In this document: positions 4,368-61,172 of the stretch, one piece after another
Position numbering within the stretch: position 1 is the stretch's first letter
Layout of the letters: the number at the start of each line of letters is the position of its first letter
Source: Sporomusa sphaeroides DSM 2875
Lineage (GTDB): Bacteria; Bacillota; Negativicutes; Sporomusales; Sporomusaceae
Direction of reading: 5' to 3'
Assembly (NCBI RefSeq): GCF_001941975.2
Contig: NZ_CP146991.1
Coordinates: 2,758,501-2,822,500 of the forward strand
Length of the DNA stretch: 64,000 nucleotides
Position numbers and translations under genes: made by a program
Notes under the pieces: model-generated
Databases searched by the model: none
What the model saw: only the letters and a program-made list of their open reading frames with translations
What the model was told of the DNA's origin: nothing

Positions 4368-4466
4368 ACATGCCCTGATCCTAGTATTGTAATAATATAG
4401 AACAAAATGTATATTTATGTTAAACTTGAATTATGCGAATATTCTTTAAGAAAAGGGTGGACAAAA

Positions 4467-6023
4467 ATGCGCATTAAAATTCCCAATATTGACCGCGTGG
4501 GGCTGGTGTTTGATATTGCCCGGGTACTTGCTGCTCAGCACATCAACATTATCTCCATGGAGGTCGACTTAGAAATAGTTTATTTGGAAACCGCGCCGTT
4601 GTCAGAAGAAAATATCTTGACTCTTTTTGACAAGCTTCGCACAATTCCCGACATTTTGGATATTGTTCCGGTTGATCTGATGCCCCACCAGGAAAAAGCC
4701 GAGCAACTTGCCGCAGTACTTGCTGCCGCCAATGACGGAATTTTGGCTATTGACCGTCATGGACGAATTACCCAGTATAACCCCGCCGCCGCAAAAATCA
4801 TGCATATTCCCTGTGCTGAGGCTCTTGGCCGGGAGCTGCTTACTGTATTCCCCTACTGCCACTCGCTGATGGAATCAATGAAAAAAGGATTAAGTTATAC
4901 CAACCGTGAAATGTTTGTCGAAGAAACCAACAGCCATTATCTGGTCAGCAGCCGCCCCCTGCTTGATCAATCCGGTGAGATAACCGGGGCAATGGCAATC
5001 CTGAAAGACATCCGGGATGTACGCAAGCTCTTTCAGCAGCTTACCGAACAGCCGGCCATGACTTTTCAGGAAATACTCCATCGCAGTAAATCGATGCGGC
5101 AGGTGATCGCGCTGGCCAAAGCTTACGCCCGGGGCGGTTCAACTGTATTAATCCGGGGGGAAACCGGTACAGGCAAGGAGCTGTTCGCCCGGGCACTGCA
5201 CGCGGCCTCGCCGCGGGCCGATAATATATTCGTACCGGTAAACTGCGCTGCCATCCCGGACACGCTGCTCGAAAGCGAGTTGTTCGGTTATGAGGAAGGT
5301 GCCTTTACCGGGGCTGTCAAGGGTGGCAAACAAGGGCTGTTTGAACTCGCCAACAGCGGAACGCTGTTTCTGGACGAGATCGGCGAAACCTCTTCGCATT
5401 TGCAAGCCAAACTGCTGCGCGTACTCCAGGATCGCAAAGTAAGACGGATTGGCAGCAGCCGGGAAATAGCGGTCGATGTCCGCATCCTGGCGGCAACCAA
5501 CCGCAATCTGGAGGATATGATCGCCGGAGGCACCTTCCGTGAAGATTTATATTACCGCCTTAATGTTATTCCTTTGTTTTTACCGCCGCTGCGTGAGCGC
5601 CGGGAGGATATTCCCCTGCTTGTTGATTTTTTCCTGCGCCGCTTCTCGACCAAGCTGCATAAGCAGGTGGATACGGTAAGCGAAACAGCCCTGCAAAAAT
5701 TATGTGCCTACACCTGGCCCGGCAACATTCGCGAACTGGAAAACGTAATTGAGCGCGCCGTTAATATTGTTACCGGCCCGACGCTGCTGACTGATCATAT
5801 TATTTTGCAGCACAGTGCACCTGCCGCCAAAGTACACTTGCCGGTCCTGCACCATACGCTGGAGGAGGCGCTGGAGGAAACGGAGCGCGAACTATTGTGC
5901 CGGGCGATGCGGCAGTTCCACACCTCCCGCCAAATTGGTAAAATGCTGGGACTGTCTCATACCACAGTACTCAAAAAACTGCGTAAGCACGGCCTGTCAC
6001 TCAATCATTTCACCCCAGCTTAA
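4467..6023 (+). CDS. TyrR-like sigma-54-dependent transcriptional activator
   Basis: 518 residues from ATG 4467, chosen for the AAAGGGTGG 6 nt upstream. Domains in order: an ACT-like effector domain (~1-75), a PAS domain (~80-185, NDGILAIDRHGRI), a sigma-54 AAA+ domain (~205-430) with Walker A GETGTGKE, the sigma-54 contact loop GAFTGA, Walker B LFLDEIGE and the R-finger region FREDLYYRL, and a C-terminal HTH (TSRQIGKMLGLSHTTV). There is no receiver domain, so it senses a small ligand directly, as TyrR does with amino acids. It faces an amino acid permease and alanine dehydrogenase, and the ald promoter is of sigma-54 type, so these are its likely targets. The GAFTGA loop is intact, unlike in E. 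coli TyrR. Its 3' end overlaps the permease 3' end by 4 nt. Confidence 0.93.
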   Translation: MRIKIPNIDRVGLVFDIARVLAAQHINIISMEVDLEIVYLETAPLSEENILTLFDKLRTIPDILDIVPVDLMPHQEKAEQLAAVLAAANDGILAIDRHGRITQYNPAAAKIMHIPCAEALGRELLTVFPYCHSLMESMKKGLSYTNREMFVEETNSHYLVSSRPLLDQSGEITGAMAILKDIRDVRKLFQQLTEQPAMTFQEILHRSKSMRQVIALAKAYARGGSTVLIRGETGTGKELFARALHAASPRADNIFVPVNCAAIPDTLLESELFGYEEGAFTGAVKGGKQGLFELANSGTLFLDEIGETSSHLQAKLLRVLQDRKVRRIGSSREIAVDVRILAATNRNLEDMIAGGTFREDLYYRLNVIPLFLPPLRERREDIPLLVDFFLRRFSTKLHKQVDTVSETALQKLCAYTWPGNIRELENVIERAVNIVTGPTLLTDHIILQHSAPAAKVHLPVLHHTLEEALEETERELLCRAMRQFHTSRQIGKMLGLSHTTVLKKLRKHGLSLNHFTPA

Positions 6024-9325: not shown

Positions 9326-11714
9326 CATTGGCAATGCACTTTTTTTGCCACAGTTCGGTGTTGATGAATTCATTGGCCAGCTTATTCTGCACTTCCACAT
9401 ATTGCGCGAAATCCTTCAGGACGAAGTAATGATCGCCCTGATTGAGAAATGCGTCATAGTGCGCCCGAAATTCCTCAGGGTAAGGGAAAAAGCCATTGAC
9501 TAGTTGCTCCATCACGGTCTTCACCCGCAAGTCCTGATGATAGATGTCCCAAGGATTATAACCGCCGTTGCGGTAATATGCCAGCACTTGATCAGCCGTC
9601 AGGCCGAAAGTGAAAATATTGTCGTCGCCGACCGCTTCCCATATCGCTATATTAGCACCGTCCAACGTACCAATCGTCACTGCCCCGTTCATCATGAACT
9701 TCATGTTGCCTGTCCCGCAGGCTTCCATGCTGGCGGTCGGGATTTGCTCGCTGACATCGCTGCCGGGAATGATCAATTCGGCATGGGATACATTATAGTT
9801 TTGCAGAAAGACAACCTTGATTCTGTTCTTTACCAACGGATCATGATTAATCTTTTCCGCCAGGGCATGGATTAGTTTGATAGTCTGCTTCGCCTTATAG
9901 TATCCCGGTGCCGCCTTGCCTGCAAAAATAAACGTTCGCGGTACGATATCGGCATGGGGGTTGTCCAGGATGCGGTTGTACAAGTCCATGATATGCAGGA
10001 CATTCATCGACTGCCGTTTATAGGCATGAATCCGCTTGATGTGTGAATCAATGAGCGAACAAGTATCTATCGCAATGCCGTACTTGGCTTGAATGTACTT
10101 TGCCAATCGCAGCTTGTTGGCAAACTTAACCTTTGCCATAGCGCAACAAAATGAATTATCATGAGCAAAATTCAACAAATGCTGCAGTTCGTCAGGGTTG
10201 GCGATCCAGCGGTCGCCAATCGCCTCACAGATGAGCTGCGCCAGATCCGGGTTAGCCAGCAGCATCCAGCGGCGGTGGGTTACTCCATTGGTGATATTGA
10301 GAAACTTTTGCGGCGTCAGCTGGTAGAAATCGCTCATCGTCTTCTGTTTGAGAATCTGCGTATGAATCGCTGATACGCCGTTTACACGATGGCTGCCGGC
10401 AATAGCCAACGCCGCCATATGAACAGTGCCGTCGGCAATAATCGCCATGGCTTTAATCTTCTGCCAGTCGCCAGGGTACATGTCCCATAACTCGCGGCAA
10501 AACCGCTCATTGATTTCCTGAACAATCATGTAAATGCGCGGCAACAGGGTTTGAAACAGATCTATCGGCCACTTTTCAAGCGCTTCGGGCAAAACAGTAT
10601 GATTCGTGTAACTAATTGTCCTGGTTGTAATGTCCCAGCTCTCCGCCCAGCCAAGCCCGTATTCGTCAAGTAATAGACGCATCAATTCCGCTACCGCCAG
10701 AGACGGATGAGTGTCATTGATGTGAATCGACAGCTTTTCCGGCAACAATCGCAAATCGGCTTTGTTGACAACGTGTTTGCGCAAGATACTCTGCAGGCTG
10801 GCTGAAACAAGGAAATACTGCTGTTTTAGCCTGAGAAGCTTCCCTTCGTACACGCTGTCATCCGGGTAGAGGGTATCGGTAAGCGATTCTGTTGCATGCT
10901 TATCGGCGATAACATTAATGCAGCCTTTGCCATGCCTGTCAAATGTGCACGCCTGGTATGTGACATCAACTTCCGCACTCCATAGCCGCAGGGTATTGAC
11001 AATCTCATTTTGATAGCCGGCAATCGGTATGTCATAAGGAACGGCGGAGATTTGCTGATAGTTTTCATGGATGAAATGCAGCTTGCCGTTGGCGATTGTT
11101 CTTACCCGGCCGCCAAACCGGACGTTCATCGTTTCCTCTGGACGGCGATACTCCCATTCATTCCGGCCTTCCTTTAGCCAATTATCCGGAAACTCGCGCT
11201 GATAACCGTCGGTCACCCTTTGCTCAAATAATCCGTAACGGTAACGAATCCCGCAGCCGTGACCCGCCAGGCCCAGCGAAGCCATAGAATCTAAATAGCA
11301 GGCAGCTAACCGCCCTAATCCGCCGTTGCCGAGCGCCGGATCTTCTTCCTGGTCAATTAATTCGGCAAGGTTGATGTTCAGGCGGCGCAAGCCTTGCTCG
11401 CAAACTTGCTGCAAGCCGAGGTTTAGCAGATTGGCTGCCAACAGTCTGCCAGGCAAAAACTCTAGCGAAAGATAGTAAACCTGCTTTTTTTGTTCCTGCC
11501 GATAGGCTGCTTCAGTATCGGCCAGCCGTTTGCTGAGAAAAGTGCGCACTAAATCGGCGAGAGCGAGATATTTCTCGCGGTTGCTTGCTGAATCCAGCGA
11601 TTTGCCGTGCAGTTTCATCACATTAGCCGTAAAAGCTATTGCAAAGTCTTCTTCTCCTGACATCGCATCAACAAAATCGAAATTAGTACCGGTTATCTGA
11701 CTTTCTCTCTGCAT
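9225..11714 (-). CDS. glgP: Glycogen/alpha-glucan phosphorylase
   Basis: 829 residues, normal for the family. The pyridoxal phosphate site motif GTGNMKFMMNGAVTIGT (lysine at about residue 670) and the N-terminal LEFLPGRLLAANLLNLG and EEDPALGNGGLGRLAACYLDS segments are diagnostic. The enzyme releases glucose-1-phosphate from the non-reducing ends of alpha-1,4-glucans with phosphate. ATG 11714 is preferred because GGGAGAGGTG lies just upstream; an in-frame TTG at 11735 overlaps the glgC stop. It follows glgC by 17 nt in one operon; no glgA, glgB or debranching gene is nearby. The last ~100 bp are duplicated at 2.9 kb. Confidence 0.97.
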   Translation of the reverse strand: MQRESQITGTNFDFVDAMSGEEDFAIAFTANVMKLHGKSLDSASNREKYLALADLVRTFLSKRLADTEAAYRQEQKKQVYYLSLEFLPGRLLAANLLNLGLQQVCEQGLRRLNINLAELIDQEEDPALGNGGLGRLAACYLDSMASLGLAGHGCGIRYRYGLFEQRVTDGYQREFPDNWLKEGRNEWEYRRPEETMNVRFGGRVRTIANGKLHFIHENYQQISAVPYDIPIAGYQNEIVNTLRLWSAEVDVTYQACTFDRHGKGCINVIADKHATESLTDTLYPDDSVYEGKLLRLKQQYFLVSASLQSILRKHVVNKADLRLLPEKLSIHINDTHPSLAVAELMRLLLDEYGLGWAESWDITTRTISYTNHTVLPEALEKWPIDLFQTLLPRIYMIVQEINERFCRELWDMYPGDWQKIKAMAIIADGTVHMAALAIAGSHRVNGVSAIHTQILKQKTMSDFYQLTPQKFLNITNGVTHRRWMLLANPDLAQLICEAIGDRWIANPDELQHLLNFAHDNSFCCAMAKVKFANKLRLAKYIQAKYGIAIDTCSLIDSHIKRIHAYKRQSMNVLHIMDLYNRILDNPHADIVPRTFIFAGKAAPGYYKAKQTIKLIHALAEKINHDPLVKNRIKVVFLQNYNVSHAELIIPGSDVSEQIPTASMEACGTGNMKFMMNGAVTIGTLDGANIAIWEAVGDDNIFTFGLTADQVLAYYRNGGYNPWDIYHQDLRVKTVMEQLVNGFFPYPEEFRAHYDAFLNQGDHYFVLKDFAQYVEVQNKLANEFINTELWQKKCIANVAHSGIFAGDRAFAEYALSVWDLAERPPCLRQH

Positions 11715-13589: not shown

Positions 13590-15466
13590 GTCGAGTAGAA
13601 GCGCGCCTCGCGGCACGCCCCCCTCACAGAACCGGACGTGCCCTATTAAGGCATCCGGCTCTTCATAGCAGCATTTACTTACGTTTAGCCATAGATATTT
13701 ACATAGATCCTCGCTTTAGCTAGCGGGAATCTATCTTTGAGTTTTGCAAATCCTTCCCAGGTCAAGCTCTTCTTTTGGCTTCTTCGATTAAGTACTTCAA
13801 ACAATTTACGCCGTATATAGTATCCAAATGTATTGATAGCGCTGCTGTTGTCGGTTACTCCATAGTAGCGGAAGTGACCAACCAGCTTGATGTTTATCTG
13901 CTTAATCAATTTTCCTATCTCTGTATGCATATTTTGATAGAGCCATCCAGCGAAATGTTTTAGCTTTGCTCTCAATTTCTTCCGGCTGGTTTTCCTTTTG
14001 ACGCGGAATTTTCCCTTCTTGCTCTTGCTACAGTAGTGCGTGAACCCAAGAAAGTCGAATGTCTCCGGTTTGCTGGCCCCTTGGTTATTCCGTCTTTCCT
14101 CAGCAAAGCGCCCGAATTCGATAGTCTTTGTTTTCTCCTCTGCTATTTCTAGGTTGAATTTCCTCAATCGTTCTATCAACTTACCGTAGAAATCTTCGGC
14201 ATCTTCTTGGTATTGAAAGAAGCATACAAAGTCGTCACAGTACCGAATTAAATAGGCCTCGCCTCTGCATTCCCGCTTTATCTTTACCATAAACCACAGG
14301 TCGAGCACATAGTGCAGGTATATGTTCGCCAGGGTTGGGGATATGATTCCCCCTTGCGGCGTTCCGGTGTCCGCCTCTTCTAGTTTCCCCTGTTCCATGA
14401 CACCTGCTTTAAGAAATCGTACTATCAGTCTCAATAGATTCGGGTCTTGGATTCGTTCTTGTAGAAACTTCACCATCCACCCGTGTTCTACGTTGTCAAA
14501 GAATCCTTTAATGTCCGCATCCACTACATAGCTGACCTTCTTGCTTTCGAGAATCTTGGTGATTTCCTTCAGCGCTTCATGGCAATTTCTCTCTGGTCTG
14601 AAACCGTAGGAGCAGTCCAGAAATTCCGGTTCGTAGATGGCTGTCAGGACTTCATTAAGTACTTTCTGCACCAGTTTGTCCTCATAGGCAGGTATCCCTA
14701 GTGGGCGTTTCTTCTTATCCGTTTTGGGGATGTAGACTCTCTTTACTGGCTGCGGCTTGTACGCTTGCCGCTTCATTCTTTCCAGGAGATTCTTGATGTT
14801 TTCCTGTAGCTTTTCACCGTATTCTTCTTTGGTTACACCATCAACGCCTACTGCCTTGTCTGCTGACAGAATACTATGGGCCGCGTTCAGGCTTTCCTCG
14901 TCAATAGCATGGATAAGGGTTTGCAACTTGACTCTCGGTCTTTGTTTGGCTAATTCAGCTATCCTTGTCAGCTTTGTTTCCAATGGGTTCTCTGCCTCCA
15001 GTGCAGCATTGTTTCTTTTTCCAAGGCCACTACTATGTTACGTCCTTCCCTCCGCTGGCATTACCCGGCTTCTTCGGTACTACGACGTAATCCGACTCCC
15101 TGTCGCTTATTTGGCTTCCTCATCTTCGACTTGTCCGCCATACTCCTTTGAGAGCGGCAGGGTCTCCCAAGTTCACACGGAGTAACAGTGTGTAGCATGC
15201 CAAGACCTACGATCCCGGGCTGCCGCGATTAGCTCGCCTGTATCGCTAACTGCGGTGTTGTCTTCTGCTCGTCCCATGCATCGACCTTGACCATTGATGA
15301 TTTCGGGATTCTACATCTTCAGCTTGTGCTTTCGGCCTACTACCTTTCCTGCCTACGCTTAGACCTGGCGTTACCGCTTCAGTCCCAAGGCTGGATACTG
15401 GGTGGTTGGCTAGACCTTCCCAGACGGGATTTCCACCCGCTTTACTCCGTGCGCTTCTTGGCGCAC
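13590..15466 (-). mobile_element. Complete group II intron (1877 bp)
   Basis: On the minus strand the intron begins GTGCGCCAAGAAGCGCAC at 15466, the bacterial group II 5' consensus, and ends CTACTCGAC at 13590. Domain V lies at 13629-13661 (GAGCCGGATGCC, loop, GGCACGTCCGGTTC) and domain VI follows (TGTGAGGGGGGCG). Removing it restores a continuous REP-like repeat that matches the uninterrupted copy at 3232-3262, which fixes both ends. The maturase lies in domain IV (13685-14983). The intron is in the same orientation as glgC but outside any coding gene, so its insertion is silent. Confidence 0.92.
13685..14983 (-). CDS. ltrA: Group II intron reverse transcriptase/maturase
   Basis: 432 residues. 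Reverse transcriptase motifs run from GVDGVTKEEY (~45) through PLGIPAYEDKLVQ, VDADIKGFFDNV and GTPQGGIISPTLANIYLHYV to the catalytic RYCDDFV (YxDD, ~250). The GIIM maturase domain follows (FDFLGFTHY, then GKLIKQINIKLVGHFRYYG). There is no C-terminal HNH endonuclease, so mobility would rely on reverse splicing at replication forks. The protein splices its host intron and copies it into DNA. The visible frame opens at a stop 54 nt upstream with only TTG or CTG starts; TTG 14983 with a distant GGAGG is a guess. Codon content appears intact and functional. Confidence 0.93.
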   Translation of the reverse strand: METKLTRIAELAKQRPRVKLQTLIHAIDEESLNAAHSILSADKAVGVDGVTKEEYGEKLQENIKNLLERMKRQAYKPQPVKRVYIPKTDKKKRPLGIPAYEDKLVQKVLNEVLTAIYEPEFLDCSYGFRPERNCHEALKEITKILESKKVSYVVDADIKGFFDNVEHGWMVKFLQERIQDPNLLRLIVRFLKAGVMEQGKLEEADTGTPQGGIISPTLANIYLHYVLDLWFMVKIKRECRGEAYLIRYCDDFVCFFQYQEDAEDFYGKLIERLRKFNLEIAEEKTKTIEFGRFAEERRNNQGASKPETFDFLGFTHYCSKSKKGKFRVKRKTSRKKLRAKLKHFAGWLYQNMHTEIGKLIKQINIKLVGHFRYYGVTDNSSAINTFGYYIRRKLFEVLNRRSQKKSLTWEGFAKLKDRFPLAKARIYVNIYG

Positions 15467-55982: not shown

Positions 55983-56022
55983 GAAAAAAAATGCCGCCAC
56001 CTTGACAGTAGTCAATCGGCAG
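55983..56022 (-). terminator. Terminator of the TrsS operon
   Basis: GCTGCC..TTGAC/GTCAA..GGCGGC, followed on the minus strand by ATTTTTTTTCC (eight T). It lies 32 nt after the TrsS stop codon. Confidence 0.82.
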
Positions 56023-56053: not shown

Positions 56054-57454
56054 TTAATCATTCTCTGTTCCCTTACCGCGGTATAAAGTCTGGCCGGCGC
56101 GGGAAGTCAAATTATAGGCGCAAAATGGTATAACCCGGCGGTCGGGGCTTACGATACCAATATGACACTCCCGTAACCGGTCTAAATCCAAATTCCAGGC
56201 ATCCTGAAACGCCATGCCGGAAATACTGAGCGTATACGTGTTTACCCGTTCCAAAAAATCATCCAGGCTGCTTACATTGATTACCGGTTTGCTTTTTGTG
56301 ACCGCGGTAAGGCGCTCAACTGACTTTGACGGCGCCTGCGGAGCCCGCCACTGTCTATTCATGAAATCCCGGGCATATACCGCCCCTGCACTGCGGGGTT
56401 CTTTGACGCAATAATAATCGGAACGATCAAGGGTCCACGGTAGTAAACTGCCATCCGGCATTAAAATAAAGTTGCCGTGAAAGGAGCAATGCGCGTTTTC
56501 ACCAGCCGGCGGCAAAAAATTAGCCGCCTTTACTTTACCGCCGGTCTGAGCTTCCAGAGCCCGGATGACCTCCGGGATGGTAAAACGGTCTTCATTCCGC
56601 GGCGCCTTAGGATAACGCCCCAGATACCCTATGGGCTGGAAGTGCACTGCCCGAACGTGAGGCACTTTTTGTAACGCATAATGTATCAATTCACCAATAT
56701 TACCGGTATTAATCCCCGGTACCAGAGTGGAAACAAGCACCACCCCAATTTCATTGTCAGCGCAATGGCTGATTGCAGCTTCCTTCAGTTCCAGCAAGGC
56801 CGCCCCCCGGATATGTTCATATATCGTATCATTAGTACCGTCAAACTGTAGAAATACGCAATTGAGTCCGGCTGCTTTCAGCTTTTTAACATATTCCGGC
56901 TCTGTGCCCAGCCGTACCCCGTTGGTGTTAAGCTGAATAAAAGGAAAGCCCAGTTTATGCCCCAGGGCGACAATGTCCGGCAAATCATCGCGCACCGTCG
57001 GCTCGCCGCCCGATAATTGAATATTACAGGGTCCGCTGCTGGCAAACAAGGTGCGGTACCAGCCTTCGATGACTGATATATCAGGATCTTCGCCGGCAGT
57101 TTCCGCGTCACTGCCGGCGAAGCAAACCGGACAACCCAGATTGCAGCGGGATGTTGCCTCCAGGAGTACCCCGCAAGGCGGTTGCTGATGGTCTGAACAC
57201 ACACCGCAGTCAAACGGACAGCCCCGGTTCATTCCTGTCGCGCAAACCGGCGGCGGGGCAGCTTTTTGGGGATAAGCCCAGCTTTCATAAGCCGGTTCCC
57301 CCCGCCAGACTACCGTGCTGAACCGTCCATGGTCCGGACATTCCTTAATAAGATAAACATCATTACCGCGTTTTACATTTTGGGCCGGAATTCGTTTAAG
57401 ACATTCGGGGCACACACTTTCCGTATGCTTTAAAAGCTTTTCATCTGGTGCCAC
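56054..57454 (-). CDS. trsS: Radical SAM protein, TrsS type
   Basis: About 466 residues from GTG 57454; an earlier TTG at 57475 and GTG at 57463 are alternatives. An N-terminal zinc-ribbon-like part (CPECLKRIPAQ, CPDHG) is followed by CPFDCGVCSDHQQPPCG, the radical SAM cluster motif EATSRCNLGCPVCFAG (CX3CX2C, ~115), then QLSGGEPTVRDD and LNTNGVRLG. A C-terminal part carries a further Cys (HCSFHGNFILMPDG) and FCAYNL. The order matches what I recall as TrsS, a (seleno)protein family; here the position after CPVC is encoded by TTC (Phe) and no in-frame TGA exists. The product and substrate are not established. It is the last gene of a five-gene operon. Confidence 0.82.
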   Translation of the reverse strand: MAPDEKLLKHTESVCPECLKRIPAQNVKRGNDVYLIKECPDHGRFSTVVWRGEPAYESWAYPQKAAPPPVCATGMNRGCPFDCGVCSDHQQPPCGVLLEATSRCNLGCPVCFAGSDAETAGEDPDISVIEGWYRTLFASSGPCNIQLSGGEPTVRDDLPDIVALGHKLGFPFIQLNTNGVRLGTEPEYVKKLKAAGLNCVFLQFDGTNDTIYEHIRGAALLELKEAAISHCADNEIGVVLVSTLVPGINTGNIGELIHYALQKVPHVRAVHFQPIGYLGRYPKAPRNEDRFTIPEVIRALEAQTGGKVKAANFLPPAGENAHCSFHGNFILMPDGSLLPWTLDRSDYYCVKEPRSAGAVYARDFMNRQWRAPQAPSKSVERLTAVTKSKPVINVSSLDDFLERVNTYTLSISGMAFQDAWNLDLDRLRECHIGIVSPDRRVIPFCAYNLTSRAGQTLYRGKGTEND

Positions 57455-57486
57455 AAAATACACCCTTTCCCGCAAGCTATCATCAA

Positions 57487-57792
57487 CTATGAGTTTCTTG
57501 CATTTATGATTAGCCGCAAAAGTTGTTCAAAGGCTTCTTTACTTAGCACTGCATCGGTTTCCGGATACACCGCCTTTAAAACGATATCGCCAATTACTCC
57601 TTTAACCTGAGTGCCGTCAGCCAAAGTCGCGTTAAAATACGGCCGGGGAAAATCACGCCGGCATTTGAAGGTGGCACTTATTTTTTCCAGCCGGGTTAAA
57701 AATTCATCATCTACTTTAAAACCCAGTCGGTATTGGAAACTGGCGCTGTTGACAAAACAGTTTTCAACTTTTTTGCACTCAAAAGAACTCAT
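57487..57792 (-). CDS. Unrecognised ~101-residue protein of the TrsS operon
   Basis: From ATG 57792 the product starts MSSFECKKVENCFVNSASFQ and continues FKVDDEFLTRLEKISATFKC, RRDFPRPYFNATLADGTQVK and GVIGDIVLKAVYPETDAVLS, ending in a helix (EAFEQLLRLIINARNS). It is mostly beta with one terminal helix; three or four cysteines are not clustered. TTG 57804 overlaps the upstream stop and is less likely. It lies between the C-GCAxxG-C-C gene and TrsS with tight spacing, so it belongs to the module. No family is recognised. Confidence 0.75.
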   Translation of the reverse strand: MSSFECKKVENCFVNSASFQYRLGFKVDDEFLTRLEKISATFKCRRDFPRPYFNATLADGTQVKGVIGDIVLKAVYPETDAVLSKEAFEQLLRLIINARNS

Positions 57793-57800
57793 CCAGCTGT

Positions 57801-58280
57801 TCAAGCCTCCAGTTTGCCAGATAATAAGTCATAACCATTGGCGATAAGAATTTCTTTCACCTTTTGATTGGTTTTCAGAAGAATCTGCGGACATCGCTGG
57901 ATACGGTTCTGGAGATTCTCTTCCAAAATAATACTGCAGTCCGTACCGCCGTATTGGGAACCGACCTCCTGCTCAAACCACTTCACCAGCTCTTCAATCA
58001 TGGCATTAAGCCGGCTGTCCTCCACTTCCTCGGCCGAACCCTTTCCCGCGTACAAAGCCAACAAACAGGCTCCGCTGGTTAACGCCCCGCAGATTTTTCC
58101 GCAATACCCCAGGCCGCCGACCAATCCGGCCATAGCCCGGATTAATTCCGGAATTTCCTTACCCTGCTCGTCAAGTCTCATCTGCAATAAAATCTGACTA
58201 CAGGAAAATTCCTGATGAGCCAGTTCTAATAAGTGAAAATAGTCTTCCGTATGTATATTCATCCGGCTGTCTCCCCTCAT
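57801..58280 (-). CDS. C-GCAxxG-C-C family protein
   Basis: 159 residues. The family pattern is complete: FSCSQILLQMR (~27), GGLGYCGKICGALTSGACLL (the GxxCGALTxG core, ~70), GGTDCSIILEEN and RIQRCPQILL (~135). The C-terminal helix is NQKVKEILIANG. Proteins of this type bind redox cofactors or metals and often sit with oxidoreductases; in the Desulfovibrio locus DVU_1555 is the counterpart as I recall it. ATG 58280 overlaps the previous stop as ATGA and has GGAGG; ATG 58262 is an alternative with GGGGAG upstream. Confidence 0.85.
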   Translation of the reverse strand: MRGDSRMNIHTEDYFHLLELAHQEFSCSQILLQMRLDEQGKEIPELIRAMAGLVGGLGYCGKICGALTSGACLLALYAGKGSAEEVEDSRLNAMIEELVKWFEQEVGSQYGGTDCSIILEENLQNRIQRCPQILLKTNQKVKEILIANGYDLLSGKLEA

Positions 58281-58492
58281 TTATCCTCCAGGGCCTTCTC
58301 AACCTGTAACATTTTACCGCGCGCCAAGCCCGGCGGGATATAAGTCAACCCGCATTCCGGACATTTAAAAAGTTCAACCGGAAAGGTATGGCCCAAATAC
58401 CCGAGAGTAACATACCCCACAGTAAGCGGAATATCACATTTTGCACAAATGACATCTTCACCATTGCCTAGCATCACGTCTTCTTTGCTCAT
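58277..58492 (-). CDS. Small zinc-ribbon redox protein, DVU_1557 type
   Basis: 71 residues with two CxxC knuckles, VICAKCDIPLTVGYV and LFKCPECGLTYIP, as in rubredoxin- or zinc-ribbon-like electron carriers, followed by a PPGLARGKMLQVEKALEDK helix. The companions match the small redox protein named after DVU_1557 in TrsS loci (from memory). ATG 58492 lies 9 nt after the stop of the large oxidoreductase. It may carry electrons from that enzyme to TrsS or its substrate. Confidence 0.82.
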   Translation of the reverse strand: MSKEDVMLGNGEDVICAKCDIPLTVGYVTLGYLGHTFPVELFKCPECGLTYIPPGLARGKMLQVEKALEDK

Positions 58493-58501
58493 AAAAACCC
58501 C

Positions 58502-60826
58502 TCACTTGTCAAGTATTTCCATACGGTGACTGTACGCATCATGAATGACAAAACCGGTTTCACCAACTGAATATTCTGCCCAGTACGTCACATACGCCGG
58601 CTTATAGCAAGCAAGAAAATGACCGTTAGTACTGTTTCGGAACTTATTGCCGGTGCGTTCCGCATATTCGATTACCTGCTGCAAATCGGCAGTCAATATC
58701 AGACTGTCTTCCATAAGCGCTCTTACCTCGTCGGCAATAACCAAGTTTACCAGCGCCGGTTTATCCTGTACGGCTTCACCCCAGATCTCCCGCAGCACAG
58801 TGGTTTTTAACCGGGCGCGCTCCTCGTGCCGCTGTGAATACCCAACCGGCGGGCGGGCAGTCATTTTCCCGTTTTTATCACCAAAAATCAAATCCAGCAA
58901 ATGATAGGTCGTTTTCCCCCGGTTGGTAAAATTATCACGGCACATGGCACAATAAGTCACATAGTCTTTGTCACTTTCGTCAATCCGCCGGTCCACAACC
59001 ATACGGGCCAACTCTCGATTGGCAATTTGCATTAACCCCCCGAAGCCACAGCACTCGGTAAATTCCCGGCTGGTTTTTAATTCTTCCACACGATGTCCCA
59101 GTTGCCGTAAAATATTTCGGACACTGTCGTGAATTTCCCGCTCATGCCGGGTGGTGCAGGAGTCGTGCACTGCCAGAGTATACGACCCGGCCGACGGTAC
59201 CTCCGGCAGGCCAATTTGGTCCATAAAGGTCCACAAAAACTCAACCGGAATATCCGGCAGATTATTTTTAAAGATCATAAAACAAGTCGGACAGCCTAGT
59301 ATTACTTTGGGGGTTCCCATACGCTCCCACTCGGACTTTATCGACTGGATTGCAGCAATAAATTTTTCCTTTTCACCGGCCCAGTCTGCCGGAGCTCCAC
59401 AGCAGCCAAGCATAAGTCCGACGCCGTCTTTGATTTTTTCCCGCAGATAATTATAAGTCTGTATAACCTGCCCGGGTGCGGAGCCGCTTAATTGACACCC
59501 GGGATAAAACATAACCTGACTTTGAGAAAACCCGGGCTCATGTCTGGTCAGGGCAGCTAGATCACTGTTACTGTATTTTAACTCCTGCAAGGCAAAACCG
59601 AACGCCGAGGGCGGCATTTTCCCGGTGCTGACCATGGTCTCCCGCGCCTCGCGGCAGAGATCCGCCATGCTGAAATTATCCTGGCACACTTCCTCACACA
59701 GCCGGCACATACTGCAGGAATTGATCATCTGATTAGATTTACGGACCACACTGGTCATATTCTTATAAATCTGCCGCGCATAGCTGAGGGGATAAGCCCG
59801 GTAATGCTTCAGATACTCACATAGCTTTACACATTCCATACACTGGCAATCAAGACAGCGTTCGGCTTCTGCCGTTGCTTCTTCCCTGGTATAGCCCAGG
59901 CCGGAATCAGCCATGACCACCACCGGCCGCGGTTCGACGCCTTCCGTGCTGGTAAAAAGCCTGGTCGGCTGCGGACCTTCATGAGAACGGCTGAAGGTAA
60001 GCGCTACCCCCTGCAAGGCCCGGTCAATGGAAATCGCTGCCGACTGACCGGCGGCAACCGAATGGATCAAAGACAGCTTGCCCTGCTCCTGACGATAACT
60101 GCCGCCGGCAAATACTTTCGGATTGCTGGTGCCAAAGGTTACCGGATCAATACATATACAGCCATCACTATCCATTTCCAGTCCCAGGGCGAAATCGGCC
60201 GCCTTGATCTGCCCCAGACCGAGATATACGGCATCGAATTCCGCTAACAGATCGTTAAACAATACCCCGGCACCGGCATGATTACCTACGGTAACCCCAA
60301 GCTTGGCCTGCACGCCCAGCTTAGCCAGTATCGCAAAATCATCGGCCATCATTTGCCTGGGCAGCTTAGCCTCCGGAAATTCCAGCAGACGGCCGCCAAA
60401 TTCGGTCCCGGTATCAAATACTGTCAGCTTATAGCCTTTCTTCGCCAAGTTCAAAGCAACCGTCAGACCGCTGATGCCGGCCCCCACCACCGCTACTTTT
60501 TTATTTTTGTTCGGAATCAGGTTATTTTTAAGCAGCGGCTGGGTATTGAAGTTCCGGCAAGCCTGCTCCAACGCATTAATTGCCAGCCCGTCTCCCGCTT
60601 CCACCCGTTTGCAAGCCTCCTGACAGGGCTGATCGCAAACCCGGCTTATGATGCCCGGAAACGGCGCCATTTTGGCAAATAAGTCGTAGCCCGCCGAAAA
60701 ATCCCCCTTGCGAATGGCCGCCATCATTCCCCGTACATCAACATGAAGCGGACAGGCAGCGGTGCAACGAGGCAGGTTTTCCTGCGTACAGTTGGCTTCC
60801 ATGGCATGTAATTGCTGTAAATCCAT
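58502..60826 (-). CDS. FAD oxidoreductase fused to a CCG-domain Fe-S protein
   Basis: 774 residues. N-terminal GltD-like Fe-S segment (CTQENLPRCTAACPLHVDVR and CDQPCQEACKRVEAG), then an FAD Rossmann fold (VVGAGISGLTVALNLAKKGY, ~112; NPKVFAGGSYRQ near 240), then ferredoxin motifs (CLDCQCMECVKLCEYL at ~327, CSMCRLCEEVC at ~374) and two CCG-type segments (FYPGCQLSG...LGCCGAPADWAGE and ECCGFGGLMQIANREL), as in heterodisulfide-reductase-like proteins. It would pass electrons from NAD(P)H through FAD to Fe-S clusters. GGGAGGGG lies just before ATG 60826. It heads the TrsS operon; the usual TrsM methyltransferase and CoA ligase partners are not in the window. Confidence 0.9.
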   Translation of the reverse strand: MDLQQLHAMEANCTQENLPRCTAACPLHVDVRGMMAAIRKGDFSAGYDLFAKMAPFPGIISRVCDQPCQEACKRVEAGDGLAINALEQACRNFNTQPLLKNNLIPNKNKKVAVVGAGISGLTVALNLAKKGYKLTVFDTGTEFGGRLLEFPEAKLPRQMMADDFAILAKLGVQAKLGVTVGNHAGAGVLFNDLLAEFDAVYLGLGQIKAADFALGLEMDSDGCICIDPVTFGTSNPKVFAGGSYRQEQGKLSLIHSVAAGQSAAISIDRALQGVALTFSRSHEGPQPTRLFTSTEGVEPRPVVVMADSGLGYTREEATAEAERCLDCQCMECVKLCEYLKHYRAYPLSYARQIYKNMTSVVRKSNQMINSCSMCRLCEEVCQDNFSMADLCREARETMVSTGKMPPSAFGFALQELKYSNSDLAALTRHEPGFSQSQVMFYPGCQLSGSAPGQVIQTYNYLREKIKDGVGLMLGCCGAPADWAGEKEKFIAAIQSIKSEWERMGTPKVILGCPTCFMIFKNNLPDIPVEFLWTFMDQIGLPEVPSAGSYTLAVHDSCTTRHEREIHDSVRNILRQLGHRVEELKTSREFTECCGFGGLMQIANRELARMVVDRRIDESDKDYVTYCAMCRDNFTNRGKTTYHLLDLIFGDKNGKMTARPPVGYSQRHEERARLKTTVLREIWGEAVQDKPALVNLVIADEVRALMEDSLILTADLQQVIEYAERTGNKFRNSTNGHFLACYKPAYVTYWAEYSVGETGFVIHDAYSHRMEILDK

Positions 60827-61172
60827 TTTCCCCTCCCGTTTCGTTAGAATTGTGAATAGTAAAAATCAGTAATTCTATATAAGCAGAACACTCTCTATAT
60901 GACTAACACTACTAGTAGACCTTGCAAATACTATGCCAAAGACAAGCCTCCCTGTTTCCCCTGCTGCTTTACACCCTAACTGGCAGCATTCTGCACTATT
61001 GAGAAAACCGCTTCAAAATATCCAACAGTCACAGAATTCACTCAGCAGATACAGGTGTGTATCAAACTGCCTCATTCCCGGTACACTTTGGTACAATAGT
61101 AACCGAAGCTATGAAAACAGGGAGCTGTCGCACCAATTGGTGCGACAGCTCCCTGTCAGGCTTATCTTAACC
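60827..61172. other. Intergenic region between gatB and the TrsS operon
   Basis: It holds the promoter side of the TrsS operon and a 40-bp palindromic terminator (61117-61156) for gatB. No gene is seen. Confidence 0.5.
61117..61156 (-). terminator. Terminator of gatA-gatB
   Basis: The half ACAGGGAGCTGTCGCACCAA is followed at once by its exact inverse complement. TTTTCATAG follows on the minus strand, 17 nt after the gatB stop codon. Confidence 0.85.

Follow-up and report, generated by a model that had tools for sequence, protein, structure and literature searches.

A reduced paralogue of the aldehyde oxidoreductase-linked TrsS locus in Sporomusa sphaeroides DSM 2875

What does a TrsS-type radical SAM operon do when its usual partner genes are not beside it? 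The question is raised by five genes in a 64 kb stretch of Sporomusa sphaeroides DSM 2875 (contig NZ_CP146991.1, positions 2,758,501-2,822,500; hereafter the window, whose own numbering is used below). These genes, read as a leftward operon in an earlier note, are indeed adjacent and co-directional on the minus strand, from 60826 to 56054, in the order DIC-RDX-CGA-U104-TrsS. The gene for DIC, a flavo-iron-sulfur protein of 774 aa (58502-60826), is separated by 9 nt from that of RDX, a small zinc-ribbon/rubredoxin-like protein of the DVU_1557 type (58277-58492, 71 aa, CxxC...CxxC). An ATGA overlap (58280-58277) joins the latter to the gene of CGA, a C-GCAxxG-C-C protein of the DVU_1555 type (57801-58280, up to 159 aa). 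U104 follows (57487-57792, 101 aa, ATG at 57792) and, after 11 nt, the Tes-like radical SAM protein TrsS (56054-57475, up to 473 aa). All five genes are intact, without stops or frameshifts, and four of the five proteins exceeded curated family cut-offs in profile searches.

A sigma-54-type promoter match, TTGGCATAGTATTTGCA, was detected on the minus strand at 60923-60939, 97 nt upstream of DIC. It was the single match in the 349 nt scanned, for a background of about 0.005 per 660 nt. Downstream of TrsS, a terminator-like stem-loop with a T-run (55985-56008, minus strand) was picked up by pattern scan only. The Rfam scan revealed no riboswitch at the operon, its only matches being to group II introns elsewhere in the window.

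The identity of the radical SAM protein as TrsS was confirmed, with 658.8 bits on NF045646 (curated cut-off 490) over residues 17-466, together with matches to PF04055 and PF23545. The GTG start of a paralogue described below suggests that translation begins at 57463, giving a protein shorter than 473 aa. The radical SAM CxxxCxxC motif (C111, C115, C118) and the N-terminal metal-ribbon cysteines C22, C25 and C46, all invariant across the family, are present. As had been claimed, the gene contains no in-frame TGA, from which the note took TrsS to be the cysteine/phenylalanine form; no selenocysteine form of TrsS was found by TGA read-through in the sampled loci. Four substitutions, P249S, G276A, S283G and C355Y, mark this TrsS, which is altered at near-invariant sites and at positions conserved as far as archaeal Tes. 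The last of the four lies in a CC motif preceding the ARxFVARQW segment. In clade II the first cysteine of this motif, at aligned position 355, is 91% conserved, a common feature not known to be required; the adjoining Cys356 is retained.

Could TrsS then be a lipid-coupling enzyme like Tes, producing membrane-spanning lipids? Tes (MJ0619; PDB 7tol, 7tom) is its nearest relative both in fold, the predicted model aligning with 7tom over 407 residues (Z 42.8), and in sequence (39% identity over 311 aa), and the two share the N-terminal metal-ribbon domain and the radical SAM motif. However, the protein scored only 338 bits on the Tes model NF045702, below the curated cut-off of 450, against 659 on the TrsS model; its central region differs, and its operon partners are redox and molybdenum-enzyme genes rather than lipid genes. 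We therefore regard a lipid-coupling role as very improbable.

RDX and CGA also belong to curated families, with 88.5 bits for RDX (DVU_1557, NF045645, cut-off 60; PF24292, 91 bits) and 169.8 bits for CGA (DVU_1555, NF045669, cut-off 103; PF09719, 84.5 bits), and the conserved cysteines of RDX and the four of CGA are kept. The proposal that a small redox protein works with TrsS is supported by the position of the DVU_1557 domain. In archaeal and Chloroflexota lineages devoid of the aldehyde oxidoreductase (AOR) discussed below, this domain still remains next to TrsS, either fused to the DIC C-terminal domain or following it. U104 gave no match in family searches. A function was sought from its predicted fold (pLDDT 87) and not retained, the matches being TBP-like/helix-grip folds (best Z 9.2, mostly below 15% identity) with no functional evidence.

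The remaining protein, DIC, scored 1023 bits on NF045663 (pyridine nucleotide-disulfide oxidoreductase/dicluster protein, cut-off 530). It comprises a GltD-like FAD domain, N-terminal and dicluster [4Fe-4S] cysteines, two HdrB-like CCG motifs and a C-terminal domain of ~85 aa, and all 25 family-conserved cysteines are present. NAD(P)H had been proposed as the electron source of the module. This was not borne out, since of the GltD-like domain DIC has the FAD half alone. Aligned with 9bov and 9n5u, it lacks the NAD(P)-binding insert between the two FAD-domain segments, where ~125 residues of 9bov are unmatched, and of 77 family members 74 likewise lack the NAD(P) motif. DIC thus resembles HdrABC/NfnL-type proteins in its GltD/NfnL-like FAD domain, dicluster and CCG motifs, but differs from them by the lack of an NAD(P)-binding domain, by its single 774-aa chain and by its own C-terminal domain. 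No sequence match to residues 301-774 was found among solved structures.

If not NAD(P)H, what could feed this module? A refutation test set beforehand asked whether the genes share a locus in other anaerobes. They do, and the survey brought out a partner overlooked by the earlier note, the D. gigas-type molybdenum AOR. Among Bacillota, AOR was present in 13 of 13 TrsS genomes (p 6e-17). Among Desulfovibrionales, AOR was found in 128 genomes, TrsS in 125 and both in 122 (p 5e-42), and in 109 of these genomes the two genes lie within 12 kb. In both groups the pair usually shares an operon. On inspection, most of the AOR genomes that seemed to lack TrsS proved not to be true exceptions: among six, two do have an adjoining TrsS and three are cases of small contigs. 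DIC follows AOR with a median gap of 93 nt (62 loci), and complete loci also carry XdhC, MocA-like, MoeA-like and molybdate-transport-like genes. In clade I of TrsS (Methanomassiliicoccales and some Chloroflexota), AOR was found in none of 11 genomes, so that TrsS chemistry must do without AOR in some lineages at least.

The D. gigas aldehyde oxidoreductase provided the first structure of the xanthine oxidase family. This enzyme (MOP; PDB 1sij, 1vlb) is orthologous to the AOR of complete TrsS loci, and D. gigas itself carries a TrsS operon downstream of AOR (100% AOR match). The operon is not mentioned in a 2023 review of the enzyme, in which the physiological flavin partner is only a putative flavodoxin (PMC10223205). 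DIC is an obvious candidate for this role, being near-constantly downstream of AOR, a flavo-iron-sulfur protein and without an NAD(P)H domain, and the TrsS, TrsM and CoA ligase genes beside AOR point to a dedicated pathway. Alternatively, TrsS, TrsM and the CoA ligase could be maturation factors for AOR that modify either the protein itself or its Mo cofactor, which we consider unlikely. The near-perfect co-occurrence and adjacency of TrsS with AOR, the molybdenum-related genes of the same loci and the ranking of MoaA as second-best structural match of TrsS are in its favour. Nevertheless, D. gigas has the full operon, yet the cytosine dinucleotide cofactor seen at 1.28 A in its purified AOR is an ordinary one, and no modification of the enzyme is reported in the review (PMC10223205); moreover, clade I TrsS exists without AOR, and AOR paralogues occur that have no neighbouring TrsS genes.

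In the window, no convincing score was obtained anywhere with TrsM, CoA ligase, NTP transferase, XdhC or AOR profiles, and a CoA-ligase remnant considered downstream of TrsS was discarded, with zero matches to the CoA-ligase profile. Compared with Desulfovibrio-type TrsS loci (NF045646/45663/45645/45669/45667/45666/45665/45664), the operon keeps four of five genes above cut-offs in the same DIC-RDX-CGA-TrsS order, adds U104 and lacks the other components. The earlier description of an operon without its usual partners (TrsM, CoA ligase, NTP transferase) thus holds for this copy but not for the genome: the full set lies 1.38 Mb away in the same chromosome (about C1:1421458-1436600), so that the partners are missing from this copy, hereafter copy B, only. 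The complete locus, in the order (MoeA-like)-AOR-DIC-RDX-TrsM-CGA-TrsS-CoA ligase-XdhC-NTP transferase-phosphatase, holds the single D. gigas-type AOR of the genome and the only TrsM and CoA ligase above cut-off genome-wide; a cysteine desulfurase and U104, the latter directly preceding TrsS, are additions seen in Sporomusa. Homologues of all five window genes are found there, with identities, for the four compared, of 57% (TrsS), 52% (DIC), 60% (CGA) and about 43% (U104). No sigma-54-type site was found upstream of its AOR.

Copy B is shared with Sporomusa sp. KB1: the window TrsS groups with the second copy of KB1 (SH-aLRT 100), adjoining the complete-locus TrsS of Sporomusa (96), and the B substitutions, including Tyr355, occur in both species. 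Copy B is under purifying selection, with dN/dS well below 1 (0.12-0.29 across comparisons). Between the same two genomes, dS is 0.37-0.49 for copy B, whereas the complete copy reaches 1.0-2.1 and gatB 1.54; copy B was therefore probably exchanged horizontally. One could suppose that copy B is what is left of a duplicated operon in decay, given the loss of TrsM, CoA ligase, XdhC, NTP transferase and desulfurase, the altered near-invariant TrsS sites and a dN/dS somewhat above that of the complete copy (TrsS 0.26 versus 0.12). The intact reading frames under selection, the retained cysteines of DIC, CGA and RDX, the promoter match, the substitutions common to two species and the horizontal exchange make this improbable. 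The results instead support copy B as a reduced, selected and horizontally exchanged version of the AOR-linked TrsS locus.

Judging from sequence, the most probable account, which we hold with modest confidence, is a Tes-like radical SAM module fed by the Hdr-like DIC, copy B being its reduced AOR-linked paralogue. As their families suggest, the last steps in making AOR's cytosine-dinucleotide Mo cofactor would fall to XdhC, the MoeA-like protein and the MocA-like NTP transferase. To judge by gene order and domain content, electrons from aldehyde oxidation by AOR, which has no flavin domain, probably pass to the FAD of DIC. DIC would distribute them, by way of its [4Fe-4S] centres and HdrB-like CCG centres, to RDX/CGA, and from there they would reach TrsS. 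TrsS may in turn carry out radical chemistry of the Tes kind, C-C or C-methylation, with a small molecule as substrate; TrsM and the CoA ligase would act on that molecule as well. Against this path stands flavodoxin, which participated in electron transfer from D. gigas AOR in an in vitro chain (PMC10223205).

Copy B, which would retain just the electron-delivery and radical SAM parts, could draw in trans on the TrsM and CoA ligase encoded at the complete locus, or it could use a related substrate, as the altered TrsS residues suggest. The CoA ligase, kept in KB1 copy B and absent from the window copy, speaks against this account. That copy B does no more than add to the dosage of the complete locus, as an accessory electron/radical module with the same product, is possible though doubtful: the protein families are the same five and partners are obtainable in trans, but the B-specific changes at sites conserved to archaeal Tes suggest another specificity and the sigma-54-type match at B has no counterpart upstream of the complete-locus AOR. 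About as tentative is a bolder version of the favoured account, in which aldehyde oxidation drives the radical SAM chemistry, DIC being the missing flavin partner and Hdr-like relay to TrsS, and copy B a mobile, neofunctionalised derivative of the radical SAM half with a new substrate.

A literature search on TrsS, DVU1553-1559 and AOR-radical SAM links brought up no work on the locus, TrsS itself appearing only as an entry in a table. With its 39% identity over 311 aa, TrsS appears to pass the thresholds given for calling bacterial Tes homologues (PMC8941075), and homology surveys of membrane-spanning-lipid producers may therefore count TrsS operons.

The tight, leftward five-gene operon of the earlier note was borne out: genes for DIC, RDX, CGA, U104 and TrsS run in this order from 60826 to 56054 on the minus strand of the window, and four of them score above curated cut-offs. 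These are the flavo-iron-sulfur (dicluster) protein DIC (774 aa; NF045663, 1023 bits, cut-off 530), the DVU_1557-type zinc-ribbon protein RDX (71 aa; NF045645, 88.5 bits, cut-off 60), the DVU_1555-type C-GCAxxG-C-C protein CGA (NF045669, 169.8 bits, cut-off 103) and the radical SAM protein TrsS (NF045646, 658.8 bits, cut-off 490); U104 (101 aa) gave no family match in Pfam or NCBIfam. The operon is preceded, at a distance of 97 nt, by a match to a sigma-54-type promoter, TTGGCATAGTATTTGCA (background about 0.005 per 660 nt), and a terminator-like hairpin follows TrsS. The same window encodes a sigma-54-dependent regulator homologue (4407-6023, plus strand), and related regulators stand at the end of TrsS loci of Acetobacterium and Clostridium (L040, L041 and L046). 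Three group II intron structural matches lie inside 13 kb on the minus strand (2588-2753, 13590-13663 and 15203-15433; Rfam RF02001, RF00029 and RF02005).

Profile searches of the 64 kb window revealed no convincing methyltransferase TrsM, CoA ligase, NTP transferase, XdhC or Desulfovibrio gigas-type aldehyde oxidoreductase (AOR). The claim that the operon lacks its usual partners is thus correct for the window but wrong for the organism, since the full set sits in a second locus of the same chromosome (C1). This complete locus carries a second TrsS (C1:1433261-1434604, 704 bits) with DIC, RDX, TrsM (NF045667), CGA and a U104 homologue, together with split and whole XdhC-type genes, a cysteine desulfurase, a CoA ligase (NF045666), a CobC-like phosphatase and a MocA-like NTP transferase carrying an HD domain (NF045665). 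The split XdhC-type protein occupies two genes (3953-5031 of L009, the complete locus), besides the whole one. Directly upstream lies the sole D. gigas-type AOR of the genome (C1:1421458-1424175), and in a genome search TrsM and CoA ligase reached their cut-offs only here. TrsS of the window is 57% identical to its counterpart in the complete locus, DIC 52%, CGA 60% and U104 43%. The window copy (copy B) is a reduced paralogue, a new form of a TrsS system already named but uncharacterised.

Among eighty loci from an 84,980-species collection, the usual order is, with variations, (MoeA-like)-AOR-DIC-RDX-TrsM-CGA-TrsS-CoA ligase-XdhC-NTP transferase-phosphatase, DIC following AOR at a median gap of 93 nt. 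With p-values that overstate independence because the counted genomes share ancestry, D. gigas-type AOR occurred in 13/13 TrsS genomes of a 149-genome Bacillota sample (Fisher p 6e-17); of 199 Desulfovibrionales genomes, 122 contained the two together, against 6 with AOR alone and 3 with TrsS alone (p 5e-42); and of the two clades of the TrsS tree, clade II, which holds both host copies, had AOR in 55/58 genomes versus 0/11 for clade I (p 2e-10). AOR without TrsS was seen in only two genomes of the Bacillota sample, both fragmented assemblies. Of the six AOR-only Desulfovibrionales, two have TrsS beside AOR after all, three have their AOR on a small broken contig and one is a real exception; 109 AOR-TrsS pairs of the Desulfovibrionales lie within 12 kb. 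Lone TrsS genes without operon partners were also found (L064, L072, L075, L085 and L088), and several such genomes carry only a more distant AOR (about 42-47% identity).

The D. gigas genome, recognised by a 100% match to the PDB 1sij sequence, has the order MoeA-like-AOR-nitroreductase-like-DIC-RDX-TrsM-CGA-TrsS-CoA ligase-XdhC-phosphatase, the nitroreductase-like gene being at 9918-10571 of this locus (L173). Such an operon could be read as maturation machinery of AOR, and cofactor maturation does suit XdhC, the NTP transferase and the MoeA-like gene; the XdhC-type protein is already named aldehyde oxidoreductase maturation factor in NCBIfam, so that the AOR link was known in part to annotators. 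However, the 1.28 A structure of D. gigas AOR shows an ordinary cytosine dinucleotide cofactor although its source carries the whole operon, a review of the enzyme reports no modification (PMC10223205), and clade I TrsS (Methanomassiliicoccales, some Chloroflexota and others) exists without AOR. The same review names flavodoxin as putative missing flavin partner of the enzyme (PMC10223205). The larger value of the results lies in the TrsS-AOR-DIC link, through which the pathway of D. gigas-type AOR and its physiological partner become testable.

The predicted TrsS structure (pLDDT 81) shares the fold of tetraether lipid synthase Tes (7tom, Z 42.8 across 407 residues, with MoaA second at Z 22). 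Besides a GltD/NfnL-like FAD domain, DIC has the cysteines of a dicluster and a pair of HdrB-like CCG motifs. Overall, the earlier interpretation was supported in part; its NAD(P)H electron source was not, since DIC lacks the NAD(P)-binding insert, whose motif is absent in 74/77 DICs. Even in AOR-free clade I, RDX and the C-terminal domain of DIC stay beside TrsS or TrsM, as a fusion in archaea; they therefore belong with TrsS, not AOR. Electrons from aldehyde oxidation would pass from AOR to DIC, which would supply RDX/CGA and TrsS; TrsS may then act by radical chemistry, as C-C bond formation or methylation, on a small molecule activated by the CoA ligase and methylated by TrsM in this scheme. 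In five Methanomassiliicoccales loci (L096, L097, L099, L100 and L104), from genomes where AOR is absent, a URO-D-family gene (possibly MtaA-like) and the fused DIC-C-terminal/RDX gene precede TrsS, a possible methyl-transfer context.

Of the genomes searched, U104 was found in 9/9 of the same genus and in one from Oscillospiraceae; it mostly stands directly after an EF2568-like cysteine desulfurase and ahead of TrsS. Its conserved core includes ENCF, with one invariant cysteine, and its fold matches are weak. Our guess is that U104 works with the desulfurase; copy B has U104 without it.

The nearest named relatives are from Sporomusa. In a 92-sequence tree, window TrsS pairs with the TrsS of a second copy in Sporomusa sp. 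KB1 (SH-aLRT 100), and the complete-locus TrsS group of Sporomusa is the sister of these two (support 96); DIC and CGA trees recovered the same pairing. The KB1 copy (DIC-RDX-CGA-TrsS-CoA ligase) lacks TrsM and apparently U104, and its gene neighbourhood differs. Between host and KB1, dS is 0.37-0.49 for copy B, far below the complete copy (1.0-2.1) and gatB, which adjoins the window operon (1.54), so the simplest explanation would be that copy B was exchanged horizontally once the species had separated. Its dN/dS of 0.12-0.29 (RDX 0.39 with an alternative start) indicates that copy B is under selection. It retains every one of the 25 cysteines conserved in the DIC family, along with four in CGA and four in RDX. 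TrsS of copy B departs from the family at P249S, G276A, S283G and C355Y, in host and KB1 alike; position 283 is Ser in every other AOR-clade sequence, and the replaced Pro, Gly and Ser (P249, G276 and S283) are also found in archaeal Tes. These changes look like altered specificity rather than decay. In S. acidovorans (L150, 9323-10732), TrsM and CoA ligase accompany a second TrsS that belongs to another clade, where its sister is Peptococcaceae L066; Sporomusa has thus acquired TrsS modules more than once.
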